DNA from: Enterobacter sp. R4-368
GTDB taxonomy: Bacteria > Pseudomonadota > Gammaproteobacteria > Enterobacterales > Enterobacteriaceae
Direction of reading: 5' to 3'
DNA length: 64,000 nt
NCBI RefSeq assembly: GCF_000410515.1
Contig: NC_021500.1
Coordinates: 620,001-684,000 of the forward strand
Shown: piece after piece, positions 12,333 to 51,322 of the stretch
How positions within the stretch are numbered: position 1 is the stretch's first letter
Layout: every line of letters begins with the position of its first letter
Position numbers and translations under genes: made by a program
The notes under the pieces: model-generated
The model's input: only the letters and a program-made list of their open reading frames with translations
Databases searched by the model: none
Told to the model about the DNA's origin: nothing

Positions 12333-12872
12333 TGCAGCTTCGTAGTGCCCGAGCTCTTCATGAAGACGCGTTGCTGTATCCAACGCTCAGGCATTTGCTG
12401 GTGCCATTCCGTCGGGATCGTGCATTGTCACTGGGTTATTCTGTACAATCCTGAACAGATTCAGCACGTCCACCGTGCCTGTCGGATCTGCGGAAAGCCA
12501 TCTACCCGTCCACGGCAGGTAATAGCGGTATCCATAGTAATAAAGCCCGGTTTCGTCCTGCTCCTTGCCGGAATAACGAATCGTTTTGTAATCCACCTCC
12601 AGCTGGCTGCGCGCGGCGAATAACGCAGTACCGCCGAACGGGTAATACTCTTCCTGACTGATTAGCTCGCCACTGCTGTCTATTTCCAGACTGCTGCTGC
12701 CGGTGAGGTTGTCGTAACTGTAACGAATCTGATTATTGGCGAAACCGGTGTACAGGCCGCTTTCCCAGTGCAGCACCTGTACCTGTGCGCGACCGGCAAT
12801 GCCGACGGTTATCACCTTGAGAGTTTCCGCGCTGCTGCGCAGTTCCAGTCCCGGCAGATAAATCACCCGTTT
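12333..12872 (-). pseudogene. TccC/Rhs core fragment (third copy)
   Basis: From about 12872 the minus strand encodes RVIYLPGLELRSS, EEYYPFGGTALFAARSQLE, YYYGYRYYLPWTGRW and LSADPTGTVDVLNLFRIVQN, ending DPDG: the last 145 or so residues of a TccC core, clearly homologous to both full copies. After MAPANA a TGA interrupts the frame, but the same frame continues ALDTATRLHEELGHYEAARL up to the IS remnant at 12332. The N-terminal two thirds are missing: the core is joined at a CACCC microhomology to a dmsD fragment. The missing C-terminal tip is best explained by the ADP-ribosyltransferase remnant at 8890-9582. Confidence 0.8.
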
Positions 12873-12965
12873 TTCACCGCACTGGGGCAACTTGCGCGGC
12901 TTGCGCTCGCGGAGTGACAATCGCAGTTGCTTATTCCGATGGCGCAAAAACCGCTGTTTCGCTAA
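12866..12965 (+). pseudogene. Displaced 3' end of dmsD
   Basis: The plus strand reads FTALGQLARLALAE-stop-QSQLLIPMAQKPLFR, which matches the last 30 residues of the resident DmsD (MALGQLAQLTLAQWQEQLLI, ending VAQKTLFR). A TGG-to-TGA change breaks it. At the left edge the rhs and dmsD sequences share CACCC, which suggests end-joining at microhomology. Because it lies in the same orientation as dmsD 7.2 kb away, the two dmsD ends bracket the toxin block as direct repeats. Confidence 0.8.
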
Positions 12966-12971
12966 AAATAC

Positions 12972-13001
12972 AAAACGGAACGTCTTAAGACGTTCCGTTT
13001 T
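12972..13001 (+). terminator. Strong palindromic terminator after the dmsD fragment
   Basis: A 30-bp perfect palindrome (AAAACGGAACGTCTT and its complement) follows the displaced dmsD stop by 6 bp and ends in TTTT. It has A-tract and T-tract on both sides, so it can work in both directions. The resident dmsD does not have this hairpin, so the fragment brought its own downstream sequence. Confidence 0.8.
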
Positions 13002-13458
13002 AAAGAAATGGTGAATGATTATCCACCACACGCCATTTGTCATGTCAAAAATATTCTTTATGCTTCAACGTTTATAAATGACTAATTAGAGATATTGCAT
13101 TTTATGTGAAAACTATGCAGTAATTCGCAATCATGTTTTTTATTAAAGCATGGGTTTAGCAACCGCTACAAAATAGCGCCTCTTTCCAATATTTAACCTG
13201 CTCACTAGAAAATCATCTAACTAAATACCGCAAAACTACGCAAAATATAGCCAAAAATCCATCCATCGAGACTTAAAACAACGCCTGAAAAAAATAAGCT
13301 TTGCACTAATAAAATAGAAATCAGGAACTTTACGTTATATCAGTACACAAACGATCTTCATAAAATGGTCAACCATCAGATATGTCCCGCCATTTTTATA
13401 CGAACGTCTCTCTAACCACCAGTATGTAGTGTGGCTAGAGAGGTATCATTATAATAAA
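13002..13458. other. A+T-rich intergenic region with a hairpin at 13408-13442
   Basis: No gene is supported. CTCTCTAACCAC (13408-13419) pairs with GTGGCTAGAGAG (13431-13442) with one mismatch, just downstream of the minus-strand toxin stop. It lacks a T-tract, so it may stabilise the mRNA 3' end more than terminate. Confidence 0.4.
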
Positions 13459-16284
13459 TTAATGCGTTACACTTGGGCGCCTGAAGTTACGCGCTTTTTG
13501 GTTCACAAACTGTCTATATAATTCTTTTTTATCCCTGTTTTTTTGCGTTGAGTAAAAAAGCAAAGCTGTTGCATGTGCAAATGTATCAGCATTTGTTTGA
13601 GCTAAACGCTCATAGTCTTGTACTGAAGCCTGGTAAAACGTAGTTTGCTGTTCTTCAGGAACTTCCCCTCTGGCAAGTAAATAAAGCGGATGATAACTTA
13701 ATTCATTAGGCTTTTCCTTATATGCGGTTACATAAATAACATCTTTGGTATTTGCCACTGCATGTGAAAACTCATGAATGACTGCGGTTACTGGAAAGTT
13801 TTTTCCGAAGCGTGCCTCATGTTTTTTTATGGCTCCTTTGTTAAATTCCATATATTTCAAATTTTTTAAATTCTTGTAATTTTTATTAATTTCAGAAACT
13901 TTGTTTTTCTTTTCTTTTACATCCAAATCCAGAGATTTCGCTCTCGCCAGAGTTTGTATATATTTAGTATATTCAATCGAAGCAACCTTATTTACTCTTG
14001 CAACAATATTTTCATCATCAATAATTTTCGCATTTTTTGAGGCATCAAACTCCCTGGCGTAAAAAATAGCACCTTCTATCATTGACTTCCAGATATTGAT
14101 TGTTTGTGCGGAGGCGTTTCCATATAATGCTTCTGCAACCTCAGTAATAGCCGTTGATTTTCCCTCATTCAAAGTATCGAGAGCGCCTTCAAGAAATTTC
14201 GTTGCTTTTTTAATAGTGTGCTGAATTTTAGATTCAAAAGAGAAAGAGAAAGAGAAAGAGAAAGAGAAAGAAAATTTCCCATCACTATCACTCAGAGTCA
14301 TTGGGTTATTTCGTACCATTCTGAAAAGGTTTAATCCATCCACCGACCCTGCCGGATCAGCCGAGAGCCACCGTCCCGCCCACGGCTGATAATAGCGGTA
14401 GCCGTAGTAATAAAGCCCGGTTGCATCCTGCTCCTTGCCGGAATAACGAATCGTTTTGTAATCCGCCTCCAGCTGGCTGCGCGAGGTGAATAACGCCGTG
14501 CCGCCGAACGGGTAATACTCCTCCTGGCTGATAAGTTCGCCACTGCTGTCCACTTCGAGGCTGCTGCTGCCGGTGAGGTTGTCGTAGCTGTAGCGCACCG
14601 CGTCATTGCTGATGCCTTCAGGCTGCCCGCTTTCCCAGTGCAGCACCCGCACCTGCGCGCGTCCGGCCACGCCGACGGTTATCACCTGTAATTCTTCGGC
14701 TGCGCTGCTGCGCAGTTCCAGACCCGGCAGGTAAACCACCCGTCTGGTCTGCGTGCCGTTGCCGGTCAGCTGCGAGGTGATTTTCACGATGCGCTGGCTG
14801 GCGGCATCGTAGCGGTAACGTTCGCTGTCGTCCGCTGCACCACTGCGGGTGACGGGCGTGACCTGCTGCAGTTCCTGACGTGCCGTCCACAGCAGGCTCT
14901 GCCCCGGTAAAAGCTGTTTCTGCTGACCACCGGCAGTGAACAGCGCCTCCACATCCGCCGGGTTTTCGGTGAGTGTGCTGATTACCGCCCGGTTGCTGCG
15001 GTCGGATACGGTGATGCTGGTGGTGTAGTTATTGCCGGATGCGGGCGCGCTGTGCTGAATTTTCGTCAGATTACCGGCGTTATCGTAGTTGTAAGTGCGG
15101 GAGTAGTTCGTGTACGTGGCGTTATCGAAGGAGGTGACATCAGGCAGGTTACTGTTCTGCTGTACCACATTTGCCATTTCGCGTCCGCTGGCGCTGACCA
15201 GCTGGTACAGGCTGTCGTAGGCGTAGTGATTTTCGGGAACCACTTCCTGATTGCGCCAGAAACGCGTCTCCTCAGCATCACTGGTGATGACCAGCACATT
15301 GCCCACCGGGTCGTACTCGTAGCGCAGGTCCTGCAGCACTTTTGCCGGTGTCATACGTTCCGTTTTAATGCCAACAAGGCGCTGCGTTTCCGCTTCATAC
15401 GAATATGTGGTCACCACGCCGTTGCCGTGCTCCTCGCGCAGCTTCTGCCCGGCAGCGGACCAGGTCAGGGATTTCACAATTACCTGCTCGGAACCGCCAT
15501 TCACCGTCAGCCAGCTGCCTTTCAGCAGCCCTGCCACGTCATAGGCCACGCGCTGGATATTACCTTTCGCATCGGTGGTGGTGAGTACATTCCCGGCGGC
15601 GTCCACCGTGCTGGTTGTGGTGTGGGTTTCGCCCGCCAGCAGGTCGTTCCACGCGGAAGCATCCGCGCCCTGCCAGTCTGCTTCGGCATCGTCCGGAAGC
15701 AACTGGCGGGTGACGGCAAGCGGCACGCCGCTCAGGGAAATGCTGGTCGTTGAGAGCAAACCTGCCGGGTCGTAGTGGCTGACAAGCTGACCGGCAAGAT
15801 TGTGGCTCTGTTCATCTGCGGAATGACCGCCCCGGGCGAACCGCTCCGTGACGCGCGCGCTGTCGCCGGCAACCTGCTCGGTAATGCTGAGCAACCGCCC
15901 CGGCAGGCCTGCACCTTCATACTGAAAAGTGCGGGTGATGGCGGCACTACGGTCATTCCCTGAGCCAATATTGCTGACCAGCAAAAACGCCCGCCCGGAG
16001 GCGTCATTCAGGGCAACCGTGGTTCCGGCATCGGCACTTTGCGTGCGCAGCGGCGCGCCGTTCAGGTCGGGGACATAACTGAAATTCGCCCGCCCGGCGG
16101 CATACAGATGCGGGTCGGCACTTTGTGACGGCAAACCGCGCGCATCAAACTGATGGCGGGTGATGCGCTCGTCGGTGGTGTCCGGCGTTTCCGGATGGCG
16201 GTGATACGTGATGTCGCGCACCGCCAGGCCACGGTTATCCAGCACCGCAACCTGGGGCGTTTTACTGTATAGGGATATACTCAT
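13459..16284 (-). CDS. TccC-type Rhs toxin with a C-terminal M35-like zinc metallopeptidase tip
   Basis: A 941-residue Tc-toxin C-component-like Rhs protein. The core (1 to about 669) has the TccC start MSISLYSKTPQVAVLDNRGL, YD repeats and the terminus RWLSADPAG (D643)...LSDSDG with the family's closing DxDG. The tip (about 670-941) opens with a (Phe-Ser) repeat. It carries AVIHEFSHAVANTKDVIY, an HExxH zinc motif (837-841) with Asp 848 seven residues on, and later TNADTFAHATALLFYS. HExxH + Asp + NADxxA is the layout of aspzincin (M35, lysine-specific metalloendopeptidase) enzymes. The inferred role is delivery of a protease into a target cell. The tip is A+T-rich compared with the core. No TcA/TcB partner and no obvious immunity gene lie beside it. 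Confidence 0.85.
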   Translation of the reverse strand: MSISLYSKTPQVAVLDNRGLAVRDITYHRHPETPDTTDERITRHQFDARGLPSQSADPHLYAAGRANFSYVPDLNGAPLRTQSADAGTTVALNDASGRAFLLVSNIGSGNDRSAAITRTFQYEGAGLPGRLLSITEQVAGDSARVTERFARGGHSADEQSHNLAGQLVSHYDPAGLLSTTSISLSGVPLAVTRQLLPDDAEADWQGADASAWNDLLAGETHTTTSTVDAAGNVLTTTDAKGNIQRVAYDVAGLLKGSWLTVNGGSEQVIVKSLTWSAAGQKLREEHGNGVVTTYSYEAETQRLVGIKTERMTPAKVLQDLRYEYDPVGNVLVITSDAEETRFWRNQEVVPENHYAYDSLYQLVSASGREMANVVQQNSNLPDVTSFDNATYTNYSRTYNYDNAGNLTKIQHSAPASGNNYTTSITVSDRSNRAVISTLTENPADVEALFTAGGQQKQLLPGQSLLWTARQELQQVTPVTRSGAADDSERYRYDAASQRIVKITSQLTGNGTQTRRVVYLPGLELRSSAAEELQVITVGVAGRAQVRVLHWESGQPEGISNDAVRYSYDNLTGSSSLEVDSSGELISQEEYYPFGGTALFTSRSQLEADYKTIRYSGKEQDATGLYYYGYRYYQPWAGRWLSADPAGSVDGLNLFRMVRNNPMTLSDSDGKFSFSFSFSFSFSFESKIQHTIKKATKFLEGALDTLNEGKSTAITEVAEALYGNASAQTINIWKSMIEGAIFYAREFDASKNAKIIDDENIVARVNKVASIEYTKYIQTLARAKSLDLDVKEKKNKVSEINKNYKNLKNLKYMEFNKGAIKKHEARFGKNFPVTAVIHEFSHAVANTKDVIYVTAYKEKPNELSYHPLYLLARGEVPEEQQTTFYQASVQDYERLAQTNADTFAHATALLFYSTQKNRDKKELYRQFVNQKARNFRRPSVTH
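14239..14272 (-). repeat. Hexanucleotide repeat encoding (Phe-Ser)n at the core-tip junction
   Basis: Five full units of AGAGAA plus a partial one, read on the minus strand as alternating Phe and Ser codons directly after the DSDG core end. Units of six bases change linker length without shifting the frame. Confidence 0.9.
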
Positions 16285-40975: not shown

Positions 40976-42221
40976 TGTGAATAACTTCTACGCCTCCTGC
41001 GAGACGCTGTTTCGCCCGGATCTGCAGGGGAAACCTGTCGTTGTCGTGTCCAACAACGATGGGTGCATTATTTCGCGATCGCGTGAGGCAAAGGACCTGG
41101 GCATAGACATGGCTGCGCCTTATTTCAAAATCAAAGATGAGCTTCATCGTCAGCGCGTGACGGTGTTTAGCTCAAATTATGCGCTGTATGCCGACCTCAG
41201 CAATCGTGTCATGTCGACGCTGGTTGAAATCACCCCCTCCGTCGAGCTTTATTCTATTGATGAGGCTTTTATCGATCTGTCTGGCGTATCAAACTGTATT
41301 TCACTTGAGGCATTCGGCCATCAGATCCGTAATCAGATTTTGAAAAATACCGGGCTGACAACGGGCGTTGGCATTGCCCCAACGAAAACCCTCGCCAAGG
41401 TGGCCAATTATGCCGCCAAAAGATGGGCCAGCGCCGGGGGAGTTGTGGATATTTCCTCCCGGGAGCGGCAACGTAAGTTACTGTTTCACGTGCCGATACA
41501 TGAGGTCTGGGGCGTGGGACGTCGCATCAGTAAAAAGCTGGCGTTAATGGGCATTGAAAATGCGCTGCAACTTGCCGACAGTTCAACCTGGGTTATCCGT
41601 AAACACTTCAATGTTGTGCTGGAACGAACCGTGCGGGAACTGCGCGGCGAATCATGTCTGGCATTTGATGAATTTCCCCCCACCAAGCAGCAAATTATCT
41701 GTAGCCGCTCTTTTGGCAAGCGGATCACGCAGTATTCAGATATGCATCAGGCCATTTGCGCCTATGCTGAACGCGCGGCAGAGAAGTTACGCGCGGAACA
41801 TCAGTTCTGCCGCTTCATCAGCGTCTTTATTCGTACCAGCCCGCATGCGGATAATCGTATTTACTACGGAAATCAGGCATCCGTGACGTTGATGACGCCG
41901 ACTAATGATACGCGCGACATTATCCGTGCTGCGACAAGCTCGCTGGATCAGATATGGCGGGAGGGGCATCGCTATATGAAGGCTGGCGTGATGCTTTCAG
42001 ATTTTTTCAGCAGCGGCGTTGCCCAACTCAATCTGTTTGATGAGAATCGCCCCTACGCGAACAGCGCAGCGCTGATGGAAACCATTGATCGTTTAAATAC
42101 ATCGGGGAGAGGAAGCGTCTGGTTTGCAGGACAGGGAATTGAAAAAAACTGGGCGATGAAACGCGACATGCTTTCCCCCGCCTACACCACACGCTATTCC
42201 GATCTGCCTGTCGTGAAATAA
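40959..42221 (+). CDS. umuC: UmuC, Y-family DNA polymerase V catalytic subunit
   Basis: A 420-residue Y-family polymerase. [15 protein letters not shown] carries the first catalytic Asp and steric gate, and [12 protein letters not shown] carries the second pair (Asp-Glu). The little-finger domain follows, and QLNLFDE near the C-terminus is a beta-clamp-binding motif. It copies past lesions at the cost of mutations under SOS control. Length agrees with E. coli UmuC (422). Confidence 0.95.
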
Positions 42222-42304: not shown

Positions 42305-43498
42305 TTATGCATGGCTGTACTCTTTTACCAGCTGGCGCAGATCCAGCTCAGAGGAGTAGTCCACGTCCGGCATTGAGAAGCCATTCAGCGCGTAAAACTC
42401 GGCAAGATACCCGGCAAAGTCACCAACGGTTTTAAAGTTCTCGGTGGTGACCCGTTTTCTTAGCAACTCCACGGCTTGCTGAACATCCGGGCGCAGCTCG
42501 AAATCATCAAGGCGGATCCGCCGCTCCTCATCCGTTACGACGTTGCCCATTGGTGGGTAAAGGTGGTTCAACATCAGCCTGTGCATCTGCTCGATGCAGG
42601 TTTCATGCAACCGCTTCTGCTTCATTACCTTGTACAGCAAGGTAATATATAACGGAAACATAGGGATAAAGGCGCTGGCTTTGGTCACCAGCGCTTTGCA
42701 CACCACCGCATAGGCATGACCATTAATGCGCTGGAGCTGTGCGTCAAGCTGGTCGGCTGTTGCGTGCAGATGGGCTTTCGCCGCGCCTAACGCGCCCTCT
42801 TTATAGAGCGGCCACGTTGATTTCGGGCCAGTATAAGAGTACGCCACCGTTTTGAACCCCTCAGCCAGCACACCAGCCGCCGATAACATATCAATCCAGC
42901 GTTGCCAGTCTTCCCCACCCATAACTTTTACCGTATCGGCAAGTTGTTGTTCGGTCACCGGTTCCAGCGTTTGATTCACCATCTTGCGGGTTTCCAGGTC
43001 AAAACCCGGGCCGGAAAAGGCTTGCCCGCGCACGCCAAGCGTCGAGGTGTAGCGCGTACCATCCGGGCAAATTCGCACGCCAGAGGCAACCGAATAGACA
43101 AGCAGATCAATGCTGCCGCCAAACTCCTGCTTGATGTACGCAATCACGTCGTTGCGGGTCGTATCGGAAAAAGCATCCGCGATAAAATTTTTCGCGATAA
43201 GCCCTTTCTCATGCGCCCGGCGACGAAAAAAAATATTGTTATACCATCCGGCGCTGCCTATACCTTTTTCGCCCGGACTTTTTTCAAATGAAACGCCAAT
43301 CGTATCGGCACCGCCACCAAAGGCCACCGCAATGCGTGAGGCCAGCCCATATCCGGAAGAGGCACCAATCACCAACACCTTGCGCGGACCATAGATTTCC
43401 CCATGCGACTCAACATAGTTAATTTGTTTATCAATGCCCTGGCGTAAACCTTCAGGATGGCAGTTTTTAGCCACATTGCCTTGAATAATAAGCTCCAT
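42305..43498 (-). CDS. fabV: FabV/Ter-type trans-2-enoyl-CoA (ACP) reductase
   Basis: A 397-residue single-chain reductase of the FabV/TER family (about 400). The NAD-binding motif is GASSGYGLASRIAVAFG (46-62), and the catalytic Tyr232-x8-Lys241 lies in the conserved segment 220-241 (YSYTGPKSTW, LYKEGALGAAK). Family members reduce crotonyl-CoA or enoyl-ACP with NADH, essentially one way. Beside thiolase, PhaB, PhaJ, Ptb and Buk genes, crotonyl-CoA to butyryl-CoA is the natural assignment; a second role as a triclosan-tolerant enoyl-ACP reductase is possible. The ATG shares its A with the stop of phaJ (TGATG), so the two are coupled. Confidence 0.92.
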   Translation of the reverse strand: MELIIQGNVAKNCHPEGLRQGIDKQINYVESHGEIYGPRKVLVIGASSGYGLASRIAVAFGGGADTIGVSFEKSPGEKGIGSAGWYNNIFFRRRAHEKGLIAKNFIADAFSDTTRNDVIAYIKQEFGGSIDLLVYSVASGVRICPDGTRYTSTLGVRGQAFSGPGFDLETRKMVNQTLEPVTEQQLADTVKVMGGEDWQRWIDMLSAAGVLAEGFKTVAYSYTGPKSTWPLYKEGALGAAKAHLHATADQLDAQLQRINGHAYAVVCKALVTKASAFIPMFPLYITLLYKVMKQKRLHETCIEQMHRLMLNHLYPPMGNVVTDEERRIRLDDFELRPDVQQAVELLRKRVTTENFKTVGDFAGYLAEFYALNGFSMPDVDYSSELDLRQLVKEYSHA

Positions 43499-43938
43499 CA
43501 GTTCACCTCCTCAGCCAGCGCTTTTTCCAGCGGCGGCAGAACGACGGCTTCACCGACAATAACCTTATCCCCATGCTGATTGGTGCACGTGGTTTTGAGC
43601 CGCACCCGGTTTTTTTCGCAATTAATCGCGATAACTTCCGCCGTCGCCGTAATCGTATCGCCAATAAATGTTGGCTTAATAAATTTGAGATCCTGGCCAA
43701 GATAAATAGAACCGTTGCCGGGCAGTTTATTAGCAATTACCGCCGAGATGAGCCCACTTACCAAAATACCATGAACAACACGTTGCCCGAATATACTTTC
43801 CCGCCCTGCACTCTCATCCAGATGAACGGGATTGGTATCGCCAGATGCCAATGCAAAATCTGCGACGTCATTATCCGTCAATGTTTTTTTAAACTCTGCA
43901 CACTGACCAATATGCAAATTGTGGATTGAATTAACCAT
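43498..43938 (-). CDS. phaJ: PhaJ-type (R)-specific enoyl-CoA hydratase (MaoC domain)
   Basis: A 146-residue hot-dog-fold protein. The hydratase-2 motif DFALASGDTNPVHLDESAG holds the catalytic Asp34 and His39, and FGQRVVHGILVSGLIS follows, as in Aeromonas PhaJ. It interconverts (R)-3-hydroxybutyryl-CoA and crotonyl-CoA. ATG 43938 is used: AAGGACG lies before it and it gives the usual family length; the open frame extends 37 codons further without family likeness. It is the first gene of the minus-strand pair with fabV and is divergent from the thiolase operon. Confidence 0.9.
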   Translation of the reverse strand: MVNSIHNLHIGQCAEFKKTLTDNDVADFALASGDTNPVHLDESAGRESIFGQRVVHGILVSGLISAVIANKLPGNGSIYLGQDLKFIKPTFIGDTITATAEVIAINCEKNRVRLKTTCTNQHGDKVIVGEAVVLPPLEKALAEEVN

Positions 43939-44464
43939 AAAGCACACGTCCTTTTCAGATATATTTTGAAAGCGTTTAACGGAAGCATTTAGAGAAACAA
44001 CTAATTGTATCCATATACACCTTTTTCCCCCAACCTCGTCAACCCCCATAGAATTGTCATTAGCTATAAGAATGGATTTATATTTATCTTTTCAGATACA
44101 GAGTATGTGTAAACTGCCCCTTAAATTAGATTTTTTACTTAAGTCGAAAATTGCCATACAGCGCCACCCCCGTAGCTACCCGAGGAGAAGAAAGCGTTTT
44201 ATCAATAAGATACCTCCGGTGCCAACAAGAAAGATCTACACGCAATCCTTATTAAAGTTTAAGAAAAAGATCATGGCCAATGAATTAATGATGAATGAAA
44301 AAACCACCAGGCAAATGCAGTAAATAAGGTTAATTACAGAAAAATAAGAAACATTGTAATTTTAACGCCATTGTTAACAACTTTTAAGTATTGACGCATA
44401 TCAATACTGTAGAAAAATCTCTGCGCATTAATAGTTGAATCATTTAAATCAAAAGGTAATACAA
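43939..44464. other. Divergent regulatory region of the butyrate genes
   Basis: 526 bp between phaJ and the thiolase gene, A+T-rich and with no supported gene. It carries the FNR-like box at 44391-44404. An in-frame TTGACG with a weak -10 about 17-19 bp further (near 44045-44010, minus strand) may start the phaJ-fabV transcript, but this is a weak match. The open frame at 44054-44323 is basic, lacks a ribosome-binding site and is not called. Confidence 0.55.
44391..44404 (+). promoter_or_regulatory. FNR box of the butyrate operon
   Basis: TTGAC-GCAT-ATCAA matches the FNR consensus TTGAT-N4-ATCAA at nine of ten positions. A -10-like ATTAAT lies at 44427-44432, which places the start near 44439 and the box centre at -41.5, the class II activator position. 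A very similar box (TTGACCAATATCAA) stands before fnr itself. Confidence 0.78.
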
Positions 44465-45652
44465 ATGAAGGACACGGATATTGTCGTTCTTGATTGTGCA
44501 AGAACTGCTATCAGCGTACTAAATGGATCGCTTGCTGAAATTAGTGCGCCGCAATTAGGCGCCACGGTGATTAAAGCGCTTCTGAAAAAAACAGGTATTG
44601 CAGCAAAAGAGATCGATGAAGTTATTATCGGCCAGGTACTTACCGCAGGCAGCGGGCAAAACCCGGCGCGCCAGACGTTAATTCAGGGAGGTATTCCTGT
44701 CGATGTTCCGGCACTAACAATTAATAAAGTGTGTGGTTCGGGGTTAAAAGCGCTGCAACTGGCATGGCAGGCGCTGAAATGTGGTGATGCCGAATTAATT
44801 ATTGCCGGAGGGCAAGAAAGTATGAGCCAGGCACCGCATGTTTTACCCCATTCACGTAACGGCATGAAAATGGGTAACTGGCCAATGCTGGACAGCATGG
44901 TGAAGGATGGCCTCTGGGATGCTTTTCATGATTATCACATGGGGATCACCGCCGAGAATGTGGCCGAAAAATATGCGATCACACGTGAAGAACAGGATGC
45001 TTTCGCCCTTGCGTCACAACACAAAGCGGCAATCGCGTTAGAAACGCATCATTTTGCCAGTGAAATTGTTCCGGTTGACATCACCCGCCCCCGTAAAGAA
45101 CCCGTCCTGTTTGATACCGATGAATTTCCCCGTCCGCAAACATCGCGTGAAGGTTTAGCCAAACTCCGACCAGCCTTTAAAACCGATGGCACCGTTACCG
45201 CCGGTAATGCCTCTGGCGTTAATGATGGTGCAGCAATGGTTATCCTGGCAACGGCGAAAAAAGCGCGTGAGCTGGGGATCAAGCCGCAGGCCAGGATCGT
45301 GGCGTTCGGTACTTCAGGCGTCTTGCCAGAAATAATGGGAACCGGCCCCATCACGGCATCTCGTCATGCGCTAACCAGGTCGAACTGGCAGGTTGATGAG
45401 TTGGATCTTATCGAAGCCAATGAAGCCTTCGCCGCTCAGGCCATCGCCGTCAACCGGGAAATGGGCTGGGATCTCTCCAGAGTGAATGTCAATGGCGGCG
45501 CGATTGCGCTCGGCCACCCTATCGGTGCATCCGGCACGCGAATTTTTGTCTCTTTGCTCCATGAAATGCAGCGCAGAAAAAGCAAAAAAGGTCTGGCAAC
45601 GCTGTGCATCGGCGGTGGTATGGGTATCGCCGTCACCGTCGAAATGGAATAA
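44465..45652 (+). CDS. phaA: Acetyl-CoA C-acetyltransferase (thiolase, PhaA/Thl type)
   Basis: A 395-residue biosynthetic thiolase that joins two acetyl-CoA into acetoacetyl-CoA. The nucleophile Cys90 lies in NKVCGSGLKAL, and His351 in GHPIGASG and Cys381 in CIGGGMG complete the active site; all match the classical C89/H348/C378 set. ATG 44465 follows AAAGGTAAT; an upstream ATG would add ten residues without homology. First gene of a plus-strand operon phaA-phaB-ptb-buk-(67-residue gene). No PHA synthase gene is present, so a polymer role is unlikely here. Confidence 0.94.
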   Translation: MKDTDIVVLDCARTAISVLNGSLAEISAPQLGATVIKALLKKTGIAAKEIDEVIIGQVLTAGSGQNPARQTLIQGGIPVDVPALTINKVCGSGLKALQLAWQALKCGDAELIIAGGQESMSQAPHVLPHSRNGMKMGNWPMLDSMVKDGLWDAFHDYHMGITAENVAEKYAITREEQDAFALASQHKAAIALETHHFASEIVPVDITRPRKEPVLFDTDEFPRPQTSREGLAKLRPAFKTDGTVTAGNASGVNDGAAMVILATAKKARELGIKPQARIVAFGTSGVLPEIMGTGPITASRHALTRSNWQVDELDLIEANEAFAAQAIAVNREMGWDLSRVNVNGGAIALGHPIGASGTRIFVSLLHEMQRRKSKKGLATLCIGGGMGIAVTVEME

Positions 45653-45686
45653 CGCCGCGATGAAGAATGTTATTTAACGTGAGGAA

Positions 45687-46430
45687 ATGATGATGGGTAA
45701 AGTTGCGCTTGTGACCGGTGGGATCCGCGGTATTGGTGGAAAAATCAGCCTTCGCTTTCTGCTGGAGCATTACCAGGTTATCGCCATTGATACGGATGCG
45801 GATCGCCTGAAAGAGTGGGTTGAGATCCAGCGAGAAGCAGGGTTTGCCAAAGCCGACGCTATTCGCTGTGACGTCAGCGATTACGCGCAGTGTCAGGACA
45901 CGGTCGGTACACTGCTGAAGCAATATGGTCATATCGATGTTCTGGTAAACAACGCGGGTATTACCCGCGATGCAACCTTTAAAAAAATGGATAAATCGCA
46001 ATGGGATGCGGTTATTCAGGTCAATCTGAACAGCATGTTCAATATGACCAAACCCGTTCTGGATAACATGCTGGCTAACCAGCGCGGGCGCATCATTAAT
46101 ATATCGTCGATAAATGGTCAGAAAGGACAGTTTGGCCAGACTAATTATTCTGCCGCCAAAGCGGGTGTGCATGGTTTCACGAAAGCACTGGCGCAGGAGG
46201 TAGCACGTAAAAATATTACCGTTAATACCATCTCCCCTGGCTACATCAACACCGAGATGATGCAGGCCATCCCCACCGATGTACTGGAAGCTATTGTGGC
46301 GCAAATTCCCGTTGGTCGCCTCGGCGAAGCCGATGAAATCGCCGAACTGGCCCTGTATCTCGCCAGTGATAAGGCCGGGTTTATTACCGGCTCCAATATT
46401 GCCATCAATGGCGGCCAGCATATGTATTAA
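45687..46430 (+). CDS. phaB: Acetoacetyl-CoA reductase, PhaB type
   Basis: A 247-residue short-chain dehydrogenase. It has the TGGIRGIGG nucleotide-binding loop, NNAG (88-91) and the Ser-Tyr-Lys active site in INISSINGQKGQFGQTNYSA followed by AKAG (Tyr154, Lys158). The NGQKGQFGQTNYS block is typical of PhaB, which makes (R)-3-hydroxybutyryl-CoA with NADPH, rather than of FabG. Three ATG codons in a row follow GAGGAA; the third may be the true start. It is 34 bp after the thiolase stop. The (R) product is the substrate of the divergent PhaJ. Confidence 0.92.
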   Translation: MMMGKVALVTGGIRGIGGKISLRFLLEHYQVIAIDTDADRLKEWVEIQREAGFAKADAIRCDVSDYAQCQDTVGTLLKQYGHIDVLVNNAGITRDATFKKMDKSQWDAVIQVNLNSMFNMTKPVLDNMLANQRGRIINISSINGQKGQFGQTNYSAAKAGVHGFTKALAQEVARKNITVNTISPGYINTEMMQAIPTDVLEAIVAQIPVGRLGEADEIAELALYLASDKAGFITGSNIAINGGQHMY

Positions 46431-46502
46431 AGATATGCCATTTCCGGGCCTCACCGGTGATACATCTGGTGAGGCAATATTGGGGACTCAGGATTTTTTA
46501 TC

Positions 46503-47393
46503 ATGCTTGAAAAATTAAGTTCGTTTGTTGAGCTTGCGCGCAGGAAAAGGCCGAAAATAATTGCCGTTGCCGCAGCAGAAGATTCTCATGCACTCGAAGC
46601 CATTAAGTGGATCAGAAATGACGGGCTGGCAGAGGCCATTCTGATTGGTTGCCGGGATAAAATAACCTCGCTCGCCGAACATCTTAAATTTGATATCAGC
46701 CATATCGAAATAATTGATATTCCAGATAAAACAGAAGCCTGCAAAGCGGCGGTGAGCGTCGTTAAATCCGGGCGAGCGCATATTTTAATGAAAGGACTTG
46801 TCGATAGCGCCATTTATTTGCGAGCGATTTTAAATAAAGAGACTGGCATTGCGGCATCGCGGCTTGTCACGCAATTAGCGTTTATCGAAAGCCCGCATTA
46901 TCACAAGCTGTTTGCAATCACTGATGCCGGTATCACTATTACACCTGATCAGCGAGATAAAGCCACGATGATTGCCCAGTCGGTTAATGTTCTGCATCAG
47001 GTTGGTATTGCGGTGCCCAAAGTCGCGCTGATTGCCGCCGTTGAGCATATTACGCCTGCAATCGCCGCTACCGTGGATGCCGCGGCGCTGAGCGGCATCG
47101 CTTATGATAACTGTATTGTTGAAGGGCCGCTGTCCATCGATCTGGCTTTTAATAAAGAATCCTGCCGACATAAAGGGTTGCATTCGCAGGTCGGCGGCGA
47201 TATTGACCTGGCCATCCTTCCGGATATCAACAGCGCCAATGTCTTTTATAAAACGGTGATGCAGCTTGGCGGAGCATTGAGCGCAAGCACACTGACGGGA
47301 ACAACAAAACCGGTGGTATTTACCTCGCGATCAGACAGCGCTAAAACAAAATATTTTGCTATTGCTTGTGCGATATCTCAATGCAAGGACTGA
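46503..47393 (+). CDS. ptb: Phosphate butyryltransferase
   Basis: A 296-residue Pta/Ptb-fold acyltransferase that swaps CoA for phosphate on butyryl-CoA. Its length is that of Ptb (about 300), shorter than Pta. VAVAAAEDSHALEAI, ILMKGLVDSA, the EGPLSIDLAFNKESC strand and GDIDLAILPDINSANVFYK are the family blocks. It starts 72 bp after phaB and ends 2 bp before the kinase start, so the last two enzymes are tightly coupled. The sequence does not exclude other short acyl-CoA substrates. Confidence 0.93.
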   Translation: MLEKLSSFVELARRKRPKIIAVAAAEDSHALEAIKWIRNDGLAEAILIGCRDKITSLAEHLKFDISHIEIIDIPDKTEACKAAVSVVKSGRAHILMKGLVDSAIYLRAILNKETGIAASRLVTQLAFIESPHYHKLFAITDAGITITPDQRDKATMIAQSVNVLHQVGIAVPKVALIAAVEHITPAIAATVDAAALSGIAYDNCIVEGPLSIDLAFNKESCRHKGLHSQVGGDIDLAILPDINSANVFYKTVMQLGGALSASTLTGTTKPVVFTSRSDSAKTKYFAIACAISQCKD

Positions 47394-47395
47394 CT

Positions 47396-48466
47396 ATGTA
47401 TATTTTGGTGATAAATCCAGGTTCAACGTCTACAAAAATTGCGGTATATAACAACCGCACGCAGCTTATTTACCGCACATTTAACCATGATGAAAAAGAG
47501 ATGGCGGCTTTTTCCACGATTCTGGATCAAAAAGCCTTTCGCAAGCAGATTATTCTCGACATATTGCAGGAACATGGTTTTCGCTTAAATGACATTGATA
47601 TATTTATCGGGCGCGGTGGTCTGGTTCGTCATTTGCAAAGCGGCGTTTATCGTATTAATGATGACTATATTCACGATGCCAGTGTCGGCCTGAACGGTGA
47701 ACATGCTTCTAATCTGGGTGCCATATTGGCCTGGGAACTCGCGCGGGCGGTAAATAAAGAAGAGATGGCGTATACCGTTGATCCTGTCGTCGTCGACGAA
47801 TATGACCCGATAGCAAAAATATCCGGAATGCCGGAGATTTCACGCGTTGGAGCTTTTCACGCGCTGAATCAAAAAGCTGTCGCGCACCGTTATGCCACGG
47901 AAACAAACCGCCCCTATTCCACGCTTAAATTGATCGTGGCCCACTTAGGTGGCGGCATCAGCGTGGGCGCTCACCGCGAAGGTCGTATTGTGGATGTGAA
48001 TTCAGCCCTGGGCGGCGATGGGCCATTCTCGCCGGAACGCGCAGGCCGCCTTCCCAGCTATGAATTATTAAAACTGTGCTTTTCAGGGCAGTACACGTAT
48101 GCGCAATTGAAGAAGAAGTTGATTGGCGAAGGCGGCGTATATGGTTATCTCGGCACCAAGGATATCCGTGACGTTGAGCAACAGATTATGGATGGGAATA
48201 AAAAAGCGCAGGACATTCTGGAAGCCATGGCCTACCAGATAGCCAAAGAGATCGCCTCGTGCGCCGCCGTACTGGAGGGTTGGGTCGATGCCATCATCAT
48301 TACCGGCGGCATCGCCTATAACAGAAGAATTGTCGAACTTATTCGTCAGCGCGTCAGTTTTATTACATCTGAAATCGTCGTTTATCCTGGTGAGGATGAA
48401 ATGTTCGCGCTGGCCGATGGTGTACTGGCAGCGATGGAAGGTCAAAGGGAGTTAGTCGAATACTGA
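47396..48466 (+). CDS. buk: Butyrate kinase
   Basis: A 356-residue ASKHA-fold acyl kinase, the family's usual length. LVINPGSTSTKIAVY is the phosphate-binding start, followed by AHLGGGISVGAHREGRIVDV (substrate and Mg site) and IITGGIAYNRRIVELI. It turns butyryl phosphate and ADP into butyrate and ATP. ATG 47396 follows AAGGACTGACT and is preferred to an upstream start inside ptb. It is 11 bp from the small gene that follows. Confidence 0.94.
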   Translation: MYILVINPGSTSTKIAVYNNRTQLIYRTFNHDEKEMAAFSTILDQKAFRKQIILDILQEHGFRLNDIDIFIGRGGLVRHLQSGVYRINDDYIHDASVGLNGEHASNLGAILAWELARAVNKEEMAYTVDPVVVDEYDPIAKISGMPEISRVGAFHALNQKAVAHRYATETNRPYSTLKLIVAHLGGGISVGAHREGRIVDVNSALGGDGPFSPERAGRLPSYELLKLCFSGQYTYAQLKKKLIGEGGVYGYLGTKDIRDVEQQIMDGNKKAQDILEAMAYQIAKEIASCAAVLEGWVDAIIITGGIAYNRRIVELIRQRVSFITSEIVVYPGEDEMFALADGVLAAMEGQRELVEY

Positions 48467-48476
48467 AGAGGTATTA

Positions 48477-48680
48477 ATGATGGGTAAAAAGAATATTGCA
48501 TTGTTTCCAAATCAAATCTCCGTGACGAAATCTAATGGCAATGTATGCCTGCACATCGATTTCAACGATGGACAGGAGGATATTTCAATTGAGCTGAATA
48601 GTTCGGAGGCAGAACATCTTTCAAGCGCGCTGGGTACCCGGCAAAATGAAATTCTTATTGCGGCCGAATATGCCGATTAA
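48477..48680 (+). CDS. 67-residue protein of unknown function at the end of the butyrate operon
   Basis: MMGKKNIALFPNQISVTKSN begins a small protein with alternating hydrophobic and polar residues (VCLHIDFNDGQEDISIELNS) and an acidic C-terminus ending AAEYAD. No signal peptide, membrane helix or recognisable domain. GAGG at 48470 precedes two ATG codons. It is the last gene before the operon terminator, 11 bp after buk, so it is cotranscribed. A regulator or stabilising partner is possible but cannot be read from the sequence. Confidence 0.75.
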   Translation: MMGKKNIALFPNQISVTKSNGNVCLHIDFNDGQEDISIELNSSEAEHLSSALGTRQNEILIAAEYAD

Positions 48681-48688
48681 AAAAACAA

Positions 48689-48719
48689 CGGGAACCGGTC
48701 TGGTTCCCGCCTTTTATTT
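48689..48719. terminator. Terminator of the butyrate operon
   Basis: CGGGAACC (48689-48696) pairs with GGTTCCCG (48702-48709), 5-nt loop, followed by CCTTTTATTT. It lies between the convergent operon end and ydaL and may serve both. Confidence 0.88.
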
Positions 48720-48757
48720 ATCATTCGCAAACTAATTACCCGACACCACCGCGATCT

Positions 48758-49321
48758 TCAACGGCTGCGTTTCGCATGCCGTTCCCAGTTATCCTGCTTC
48801 GCCTGCTCAGATTTGCGGATCGCAACATAGCAAGCGCCACTTCCGCCGTGGTGCGGCAGCGCGGTGCAAAACGCCTGAACCTCATCGAATTCAGGTAGCC
48901 AGCGCGCCAGATAACTCCGAATGATATTCGCATGCGAACCGTCTTCACGCGCTTTACCATGAATGATAAGCACATTGCGTAGCCCATCCTGGCGCGCATG
49001 ATACATAAAACGAAACACCATTTGTCGGCACTGTTCAACCGGCTGGCGCAGTAAGTTCAGGCTTGCCTGTTGGCCATATTTTCCCTGGCGCAATTTATCA
49101 AGCACCCCTTGCTGCAGGCCTTCTCGTTTGAACTCCAGCGGTGAATCAAGCGGCACGATATCAAGAAACCCGGTGGTCAGAAAGTTGTCGAGTTGCAGCG
49201 TGTCGACGCGTTGTAGCGTGCGCGAATTGTGGCTCGGTTGCCAGTGCACATCGGCACTGCGCTTCAGGGGTTGGACATCTTCCATGGCGTCAAGGAAAAG
49301 CAATTTGTCGTCAGGGTTCAT
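48758..49321 (-). CDS. ydaL: Smr-domain protein YdaL
   Basis: A 187-residue protein, the exact size of E. coli YdaL. The N-terminal MNPDDKLLFLDAMEDVQPLK block and the Smr domain (LRNVLIIHGKAREDGSHANI, then TALPHHGGSGACYVAIRK) are conserved. Smr domains are DNA- or RNA-nicking modules of the MutS2 type. The E. coli neighbours abgTBAR, which usually stand between ydaL and ogt, are absent. Confidence 0.93.
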   Translation of the reverse strand: MNPDDKLLFLDAMEDVQPLKRSADVHWQPSHNSRTLQRVDTLQLDNFLTTGFLDIVPLDSPLEFKREGLQQGVLDKLRQGKYGQQASLNLLRQPVEQCRQMVFRFMYHARQDGLRNVLIIHGKAREDGSHANIIRSYLARWLPEFDEVQAFCTALPHHGGSGACYVAIRKSEQAKQDNWERHAKRSR

Positions 49322-49844
49322 AGGGCAGTCCTCCGGCTACTTCAGCCCCCGTACTATAGCTGGCAGGGCCTGCGCTCACAATGCCTGGTGGCAAAATGGC
49401 TTTTGCACCCGAAAAAAATAATAGCGAATGGTTCTCCTGGACGATATTCCAATAACATCACTCTTAGTAATGTTATGAAAAACTCAACTTAAGAAAAATT
49501 AATATTCTGAATTTCAGTTAAATTAACGTGAAATCAATCACCAATTCTTACTGGAAATATGATGAAGGAACGCTATAACTATATTTACCGCGCAAGGATG
49601 AAAATGCATAAAATAACGAACGGATGCGCTGCTGTGTGTACTGTAGAGCCTGACGGATGTCGGCAGGCTCTATTTTTTTATTCGCGAAATAAGCGCAATA
49701 TATCATCTATTAAATAATGCATACTTCGCTGGCTATTATTTCACCAGCTTATTTCTTTACCCAGAATATAGTCTCTTTCGGGGTATAGCAGCATCGCTGG
49801 ACGTTTGGTAAATTGGCGCCGTTGCCCACTGAAAAGGATGCCAG
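49322..49844. other. Intergenic region between ydaL and ogt, with an orphan terminator
   Basis: 523 bp without a supported protein gene. A short frame at 49559-49717 runs through the terminator and has no family likeness. The orphan terminator suggests a small RNA (see next entry). Confidence 0.5.
49644..49679 (+). terminator. Strong terminator with no gene before it; candidate small-RNA end
   Basis: TAGAGCCTG (49644-49652) pairs with CAGGCTCTA (49664-49672), a perfect 9-bp stem, followed by seven T. A TATGAT hexamer at 49558-49563 could be a -10. A transcript of about 110 nt is possible. Confidence 0.65.
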
Positions 49845-50535: not shown

Positions 50536-50549
50536 TTGACCAATATCAA
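50536..50549 (+). promoter_or_regulatory. FNR autoregulatory box before fnr
   Basis: TTGACCAATATCAA, nine of ten consensus positions, lies 21 bp upstream of the fnr start codon. In E. coli fnr is repressed by its own product at an equivalent site. Confidence 0.88.
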
Positions 50550-50569
50550 TTACGGCGTTGAGCAGACCT

Positions 50570-51322
50570 ATGATCCCGGAAAAGCGAATTATACGACGCA
50601 TTCAGTCTGGCGGTTGTGCAATCCATTGCCAGGATTGCAGCATTAGCCAGCTTTGCATCCCCTTTACTCTTAATGAACACGAGCTGGATCAGCTCGATAA
50701 CATCATTGAGCGTAAAAAGCCCATCCAGAAAGGTCAGACTTTGTTCAAAGCCGGGGATGAATTGAAATCGCTGTACGCTATCCGCTCCGGTACGATCAAA
50801 AGCTACACCATTACTGAACAGGGCGACGAGCAGATCACAGGTTTCCATCTGGCGGGTGATTTGGTGGGCTTTGATGCCATTGGTACTGGCCATCATCCGA
50901 GCTTCGCGCAGGCTCTTGAAACATCGATGGTCTGTGAAATCCCGTTCGAAACGCTGGATGACCTCTCGGGTAAAATGCCCAATCTGCGTCAGCAGATGAT
51001 GCGTTTGATGAGCGGCGAGATCAAAGGCGATCAGGATATGATCCTGCTGCTTTCGAAGAAAAATGCAGAAGAACGCCTGGCGGCATTTATTTATAACCTC
51101 TCACGCCGTTTTGCACAGCGCGGTTTCTCCCCGCGTGAATTCCGCCTGACGATGACGCGTGGCGACATCGGCAACTATCTGGGTCTGACGGTGGAAACCA
51201 TCAGCCGTCTGTTAGGCCGTTTCCAGAAGAGCGGCATGCTGGCGGTGAAAGGAAAATATATCACCATTGAAAATAGCGACATGCTGGCGCAACTGGCCGG
51301 TCATGCGCGTAACGTTGCCTGA
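50570..51322 (+). CDS. fnr: FNR, oxygen-sensing global regulator
   Basis: A 250-residue CRP/FNR-family regulator, almost identical in reading to E. coli FNR. Cys20, Cys23 and Cys29 ([11 protein letters not shown]) plus the later Cys in SMVCEIPFE bind the oxygen-labile 4Fe-4S cluster. The recognition helix is [13 protein letters not shown]. The ATG at 50570 matches the E. coli start MIPEKRI. It is the likely activator of the DMSO-reductase operon and, from its box, of the butyrate operon. Confidence 0.97.

Follow-up and report, generated by a model that had tools for sequence, protein, structure and literature searches.

A candidate butyrate fermentation locus without Bcd-EtfAB in the enterobacterial genus Kosakonia

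We analysed a stretch of 64,000 nucleotides from Enterobacter sp. R4-368 (contig NC_021500.1, positions 620,001 to 684,000 of the forward strand; hereafter, the window), in which six genes whose products could together convert acetyl-CoA to butyrate form a divergent set between umuC, which ends at 42221, and smrA (48758-49321, reverse strand). The genes fabV and phaJ are carried by the minus strand, and phaA-phaB-ptb-buk by the plus strand. On sequence grounds the genome, which comprises 5.16 Mb in two contigs, belongs to the genus Kosakonia, near K. pseudosacchari and K. quasisacchari, and the six proteins share 94-99% identity with those of K. pseudosacchari JM-387 and K. quasisacchari WCHEs120001.

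Six divergent genes and the pathway they could form

The features of the locus, numbered from the first nucleotide of the window and including open reading frames (ORFs) and the ratio of nonsynonymous to synonymous substitution (dN/dS) where relevant, are as follows.

42305..43498, minus strand: fabV, a FabV/Ter-family enoyl reductase, read as converting crotonyl-CoA to butyryl-CoA with NADH
43498..43938, minus strand: phaJ, a MaoC-type (R)-specific enoyl-CoA hydratase, predicted to convert (R)-3-hydroxybutyryl-CoA to crotonyl-CoA; the listed ORF starts upstream, at 44049
44391..44404, plus strand: FNR-type site TTGACGCATATCAA, which precedes the phaA ATG by 74 bp
44465..45652, plus strand: phaA (thl), acetyl-CoA acetyltransferase (biosynthetic thiolase); the listed ORF starts at a TTG 30 bp upstream
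45687..46430, plus strand: phaB, acetoacetyl-CoA reductase of the SDR type, whose strand beta-2 ends in an acidic residue
46503..47393, plus strand: ptb, phosphate butyryltransferase-like phosphotransacylase
47396..48466, plus strand: buk, butyrate kinase
48477..48680, plus strand: a 67-codon ORF after buk, also open in K. pseudosacchari, with no family match and a dN/dS of 0.96

All six ORFs are open and no gene is broken, and the phaJ stop and the fabV start share one base. The expected catalytic residues are in place in the thiolase (C90/H351/C381), PhaB (Y154/K158 and S141), PhaJ (D34/H39) and FabV (Y232-x8-K241). The ORFs, family models and residue check thereby bear out the first-pass annotation of this DNA, which had described six intact, divergent genes with named catalytic residues. 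Its span, drawn to 48720, holds all six, the last of which ends at 48466, and also takes in the 67-codon ORF, whose membership in the cluster is doubtful.

Comparison with family models places FabV above two NCBIfam cut-offs (523 versus 403 and 459.7 versus 400 bits), with its Y-x8-K motif present, PhaB above the acetoacetyl-CoA reductase model TIGR01829 (342.2 versus 302.1 bits) and Buk above TIGR02707 (482.8 versus 289.1 bits). For the thiolase, the general model TIGR01930 is the sole one above its cut-off among the best 25 of 53 matching thiolase models, and PhaJ exceeds the Pfam MaoC cut-off and no NCBIfam cut-off; PhaJ, Ptb and the exact thiolase type are accordingly assigned by closest family and context rather than by NCBIfam cut-off. 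Among solved structures, FabV is closest to FabV/Ter enzymes, PhaB to acetoacetyl-CoA reductases, Ptb to a phosphate butyryltransferase and Buk to butyrate kinase 2.

Read in order, PhaA would join two molecules of acetyl-CoA, and reduction by PhaB would give (R)-3-hydroxybutyryl-CoA, which PhaJ would dehydrate to crotonyl-CoA. FabV, acting as a trans-2-enoyl-CoA reductase, would then form butyryl-CoA, from which Ptb and Buk would release butyrate with the gain of one ATP. As a genetic capacity, the reading that a putative enzyme is encoded at the locus for each step between acetyl-CoA and butyrate is supported. Our preferred reading, which we judge probable, is that the locus represents a fermentation cassette that spread by horizontal transfer, is probably switched on anaerobically and takes acetyl-CoA to butyrate by an (R)-route without Bcd-EtfAB; from the genes and their context we infer the transfer, the substrate preferences, the cofactor use, the control by FNR and butyrate as the product.

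The synthesis of polyhydroxyalkanoate (PHA) by a phaCAB-type system was considered and rejected, as neither PF07167 nor TIGR01836 finds a PHA synthase anywhere in the window genome. The first-pass annotation had likewise reported no PHA synthase gene, and the synthase elsewhere in the genome that it had named as a threat to the butyrate reading was not found by these models. Among 14 control genomes, PF07167 exceeds its cut-off in one and TIGR01836 in none.

As a general rule, members of the enzyme family of PhaB in which strand beta-2 ends in an acidic residue favour NADH. Aspartate occupies this position in all five PhaBs aligned from the eight six-gene loci described below (AIDTD, AFDND, AVDID) and is absent from the PhaBs of Scandinavium (AVATN) and of a Lentisphaerota strain (AVGTN); a FabG-type reductase encoded in a further genome (G567) also carries it. 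This cofactor-loop residue suggests that PhaB uses NADH. Published FabVs reduce crotonyl-CoA, and one of them strongly prefers NADH, according to the available excerpts of PMC3198815. This published behaviour of FabV and the PhaB residue suggest NADH use by both reductases; if both do use NADH and acetyl-CoA is supplied by pyruvate formate-lyase, the pathway would consume exactly the two glycolytic NADH formed per glucose. Such a balance corresponds to the conversion of glucose to butyrate and two formate, with three ATP.

Distribution, genomic sites and selection

All 15 genomes of Kosakonia in our sample were searched for buk and fabV. A buk gene (E below 1e-190) is present in seven of them, the other eight yielding weak matches that resemble acetate kinase, and fabV is found in exactly the same seven genomes and in none of the remainder. 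In each of these seven the six genes are adjacent and in identical divergent order, and all six are also present in a genome of another genus (G128), at 66-73% identity to the window. The joint search that the first-pass annotation had proposed thus finds the six proteins together in 7 of 15 Kosakonia genomes and in one other genus, at three sites. Because eight genomes, that of the window among them, keep this order while their proteins share 66-99% identity with those of the window, a chance arrangement is excluded.

In the loci that we designate type A (the window, G007, G008 and G010), the cluster lies between umuC and smrA. Those of type B (G004, G009 and G011), whose proteins are 69-83% identical to those of the window, share one site that differs from that of type A and is flanked by what we take to be a LacI-type regulator and an ABC transporter binding protein. 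The cluster in G128 is presumably flanked by ftsP- and dkgA-like genes. The umuC-smrA site carries no insert in 11 Kosakonia genomes; among five such sites inspected, umuC adjoins smrA in four, and only fragments of umuC are present in the fifth (G004). The three genomic sites and the patchy spread therefore speak for horizontal transfer, with loss and rearrangement as the alternatives.

Beyond the genus, counts of Buk matches refer to samples of genomes, each including that of the window, and not to full counts. Matches occur in 6 of 392 Enterobacteriaceae genomes at E≤1e-30 (two of the six being Kosakonia), in 5 of 394 genomes of the order at E≤1e-50 and in 3 of 340 of the class at E≤1e-100, with two weaker matches in the class (G866, G982). 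PhaJ matches were obtained in 25 of the 394 genomes of the order, again counting that of the window; among four of the other 24 neighbourhoods that were inspected, PhaJ lies beside FabV in two (G545, G567) and not in the other two (G466, G422). In G422, a PhaB-like gene lies some 2 kb from PhaJ. Although 194 plasmid records match the six-gene DNA, none does so over more than 80% of its length, and the best (54%) is a Scandinavium plasmid. Carriage by Escherichia coli was rejected: 2 of 5,426 genomes match phaB-ptb-buk DNA, the best place covering 12% of the query, and both are strains named phbCAB that have evidently been engineered. Buk-Ptb pairs in three genomes (G193, G494, G748; Buk 36-42%) were set aside, since no thiolase match lies within the 11-18 kb inspected.

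The six genes are under strong purifying selection. In a comparison of one species pair, the window and K. pseudosacchari, by Nei-Gojobori counts from our own script, dN/dS is 0.044 for fabV, 0.054 for phaJ, 0.058 for phaA, 0.058 for phaB, 0.076 for ptb and 0.053 for buk, values that can be set beside those for smrA (0.074), ogt (0.046) and fnr (0.008). The names ogt, fnr and uspE for neighbouring genes are ones that we assume by recognition, without a family search. Elsewhere in the window, a match to the McaS/IsrA small RNA (72.5 bits) occupies 49589-49681 on the plus strand, between smrA and ogt, and the minus strand encodes at 13459-16284 a 941-residue protein of RHS-type appearance with a divergent C-terminal tip, adjoined at 12387-13043 by a shorter RHS-type ORF with a different C-terminus, both labelled by eye.

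An FNR-type site and competing readings

The sequence TTGAY-N4-ATCAA occurs in exact form at two places in the window, at 44391-44404 before phaA and at 50536-50549 (plus strand) just upstream of an fnr-like gene (50558-51322), the latter of which fits autoregulation of FNR. An exact FNR-type site precedes phaA in all seven Kosakonia loci, at -74 in the four of type A and at -77 in the three of type B, although these seven sites represent two lineages with different flanking DNA rather than seven independent cases. When the 526-bp upstream region was shuffled by mononucleotides, 87 of 20,000 trials contained an FNR-type site. FNR would be expected to switch on phaA-phaB-ptb-buk, leading to anaerobic induction. 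In Scandinavium and in another relative (G079), the cluster is instead accompanied by a gene that encodes a winged-helix domain (HTH_46). The first-pass interpretation of the locus as a route from acetyl-CoA to butyrate gains from the gene set, the presence of FabI elsewhere in the genome (see below), the conserved unit, the purifying selection and the FNR-type site, whereas its end product, cofactors and substrate preferences are predictions.

Several observations weigh against this interpretation. PhaB also scores above two FabG-type subfamily models (311.2 versus 269 and 261.9 versus 222 bits), and the best models for Ptb, which are of phosphate butyryltransferase, are matched below their cut-offs (293.5 versus 399; TIGR02706, 277.7 versus 410.5); by sequence, Ptb is still closest to phosphate butyryltransferase, and its gene adjoins buk. 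FabV and Ter are inseparable by sequence, the best solved relatives scoring 366 (a FabV), 360 (CA_C0462) and 354 bits (TDE_0597). No FNR-type site was found upstream of phaA in G128, Scandinavium, G079 or the Lentisphaerota strain with one mismatch allowed, and one-mismatch FNR-like sites are not enriched across the window (12 versus 8.2 expected). The -10 boxes are weak, with only four of six bases matching in several registers, and the centre of the FNR-type site, considered for a class II position, falls at about -40.5 to -44.5 depending on the register. Finally, cassette-like second FabVs (52-56% identity) stand without nearby cassette genes in all five genomes inspected over about 7 kb on each side (G409, G464, G522, G565, G700).

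These second FabVs, together with the abundance of FabV in the order (281 of 394 genomes at E≤1e-80), would fit a back-up enoyl-ACP reductase of the triclosan or stress type, the other genes then being a loosely placed acyl-CoA set without joint function. We consider this extremely unlikely, as FabV occurs in none of the eight Kosakonia genomes that lack buk, fabV and phaJ overlap by one base and the cassette FabVs form a distinct clade. A FabV tree with 48 rows, 46 of them different, unites the eight cassette sequences in one clade (100/99) that is far removed from a clade of five other FabV rows. The other 35 rows lie nearer to the cassette clade and include CoA-transferase-linked FabVs and many second FabVs of the order. 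The type of FabV alone is no proof of a role in butyrate formation, because second FabVs stand without cassette genes, and it is the linkage that does the work. A housekeeping function is also unlikely, given that FabV is found in the genus only together with buk and that FabI is encoded elsewhere in the window genome (95% identity to the E. coli enzyme); with FabI present, FabV would not be needed for fatty acids and would therefore be free for crotonyl-CoA. Loci L097 and L124-L128 hold such cassette-like second FabVs, with no cassette gene nearby, and an Aeromonas caviae record contains a FabV-like match in a stretch without annotation.

The main rival product is (R)-3-hydroxybutyrate, which the core genes may yield, as relatives that carry only phaA-phaB-ptb-buk suggest. 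The Scandinavium goeteborgense plasmid pSg66741_1 encodes these four activities (55-64% identity) with no adjoining phaJ or fabV, and the Scandinavium genome G055 has no match to phaJ (E≤1e-25) or fabV (E≤1e-80). The same four activities gave 12 g/L of (R)-3-hydroxybutyrate in E. coli (Gao et al. 2002, as reported in excerpts of PMC7147478), and in the window only 74 bp separate the FNR-type site from phaA, against about 450 bp from phaJ. A core that makes mainly this acid with ATP, phaJ-fabV being a side branch or giving partial conversion to butyrate, is nonetheless unlikely: all eight six-gene loci pair the core with phaJ and fabV, which are as constrained as the core genes, and the PhaBs aligned from these loci differ from those of Scandinavium and Lentisphaerota in their acidic cofactor-loop residue.

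Ptb and Buk are reversible, and Buk-Ptb might instead activate butyrate or related acids for oxidation or condensation by the other enzymes. Activation of propionate by Ptb-Buk in E. coli has been described (PMC9118988, in part). We regard operation in the uptake direction as very unlikely, since enzymes of the FabV/Ter type are known to act as NADH-linked reductases, the FNR-type site suggests a role under anaerobic conditions and the six genes include no acyl-CoA dehydrogenase.

Modular relatives, known routes and significance

A thiolase-Ptb-Buk core is joined by different genes in other genomes. PhaB is the sole addition in the Scandinavium plasmid, an acetoacetate decarboxylase and an acetate-CoA-ligase-like enzyme are added in G079 and G707, and Lentisphaerota strain zth2 has PhaB, both of the latter enzymes and a second dehydrogenase. 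In G545 and G567 (genus g174), PhaJ-FabV neighbours thiolase, FabG-type reductase and CoA-transferase genes. The loci L089 (6729-12886) and L048 (4891-10987), with thiolase, ptb, buk, acetoacetate decarboxylase and acetate-CoA-ligase-like genes, are candidates for acetone or acetoacetate fermentation, and L078 (3119-9899), with thiolase, FabG-type reductase, LysR-like regulator, CoA-transferase, PhaJ and FabV, possibly encodes a butyrate route ending in a CoA-transferase. Products of the modular relatives are predicted from gene content only.

These arrangements might reflect a mobile cassette family for acetoacetyl-CoA fermentation, spread over Gammaproteobacteria and at least one strain of Lentisphaerota, in which an ATP-making thiolase-Ptb-Buk core is combined with exchangeable product modules, FNR control was gained in Kosakonia and the butyrate-type PhaB moved towards NADH, a proposal that we see as evenly poised between right and wrong. 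Under it, PhaB alone would lead to (R)-3-hydroxybutyrate (Scandinavium plasmid), PhaB-PhaJ-FabV to butyrate (Kosakonia and G128) and acetoacetate decarboxylase to acetone (G079, G707 and Lentisphaerota zth2).

Butyrate fermentation is regarded as a trait of strict anaerobes with flavin-based Bcd-EtfAB, and the route proposed here is known mostly from engineered bacteria. The clostridial Thl-Hbd-Crt-Bcd-EtfAB-Ptb-Buk pathway has its start, its net chemistry and its Ptb-Buk ending with one ATP in common with the window locus, which differs in using PhaB and PhaJ via an (R)-hydroxyacyl-CoA and FabV in place of Bcd-EtfAB; Hbd, Crt, Bcd and EtfAB are not among the six genes, in which SDR, MaoC and FabV families are matched in their place, a statement confined to the locus, as no genome-wide search for them was made. 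The same chain (thiolase-PhaB-PhaJ-TdTer) operates in engineered reverse beta-oxidation in E. coli, where the designs described in the available part of PMC9118988 end in thioesterases or other steps and Ptb-Buk appears in other designs; the window locus, by comparison, is natural and chromosomal, with a FabV-type reductase and an FNR-type site. The phbA-phbB-ptb-buk route in E. coli (Gao et al. 2002, via excerpts of PMC7147478) has the four activities of the core operon and of the Scandinavium plasmid locus, and stops at the hydroxy acid, without PhaJ and FabV.

The first-pass remark that Enterobacteriaceae are not usually described as butyrate makers needs some qualification, as a bare butyrate prediction for one Kosakonia species is already in print: K. 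sacchari was the only proteobacterial genome with a butyrate pathway in a 2022 survey (PMC9403272). That species is of the same genus as the window, and the route described in the accessible portions of the survey is that of Hbd/Crt/Bcd-EtfAB, with no FabV and no gene list. The gene set, the (R)-route, the FNR-type site, the three sites and the modular relatives were not found among the matches listed in the literature searched, which includes few subscription journals.

If our reading of the locus as a butyrate cassette is correct, evolution would have reached, in a facultative and genetically tractable relative of E. coli, a route that metabolic engineers assembled. Metagenome screens that demand bcd-etfAB would miss such a locus, which would also offer a ready cassette for study in laboratory E. 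coli, and butyrate (or 3-hydroxybutyrate) would join the products of plant-associated enterobacteria.

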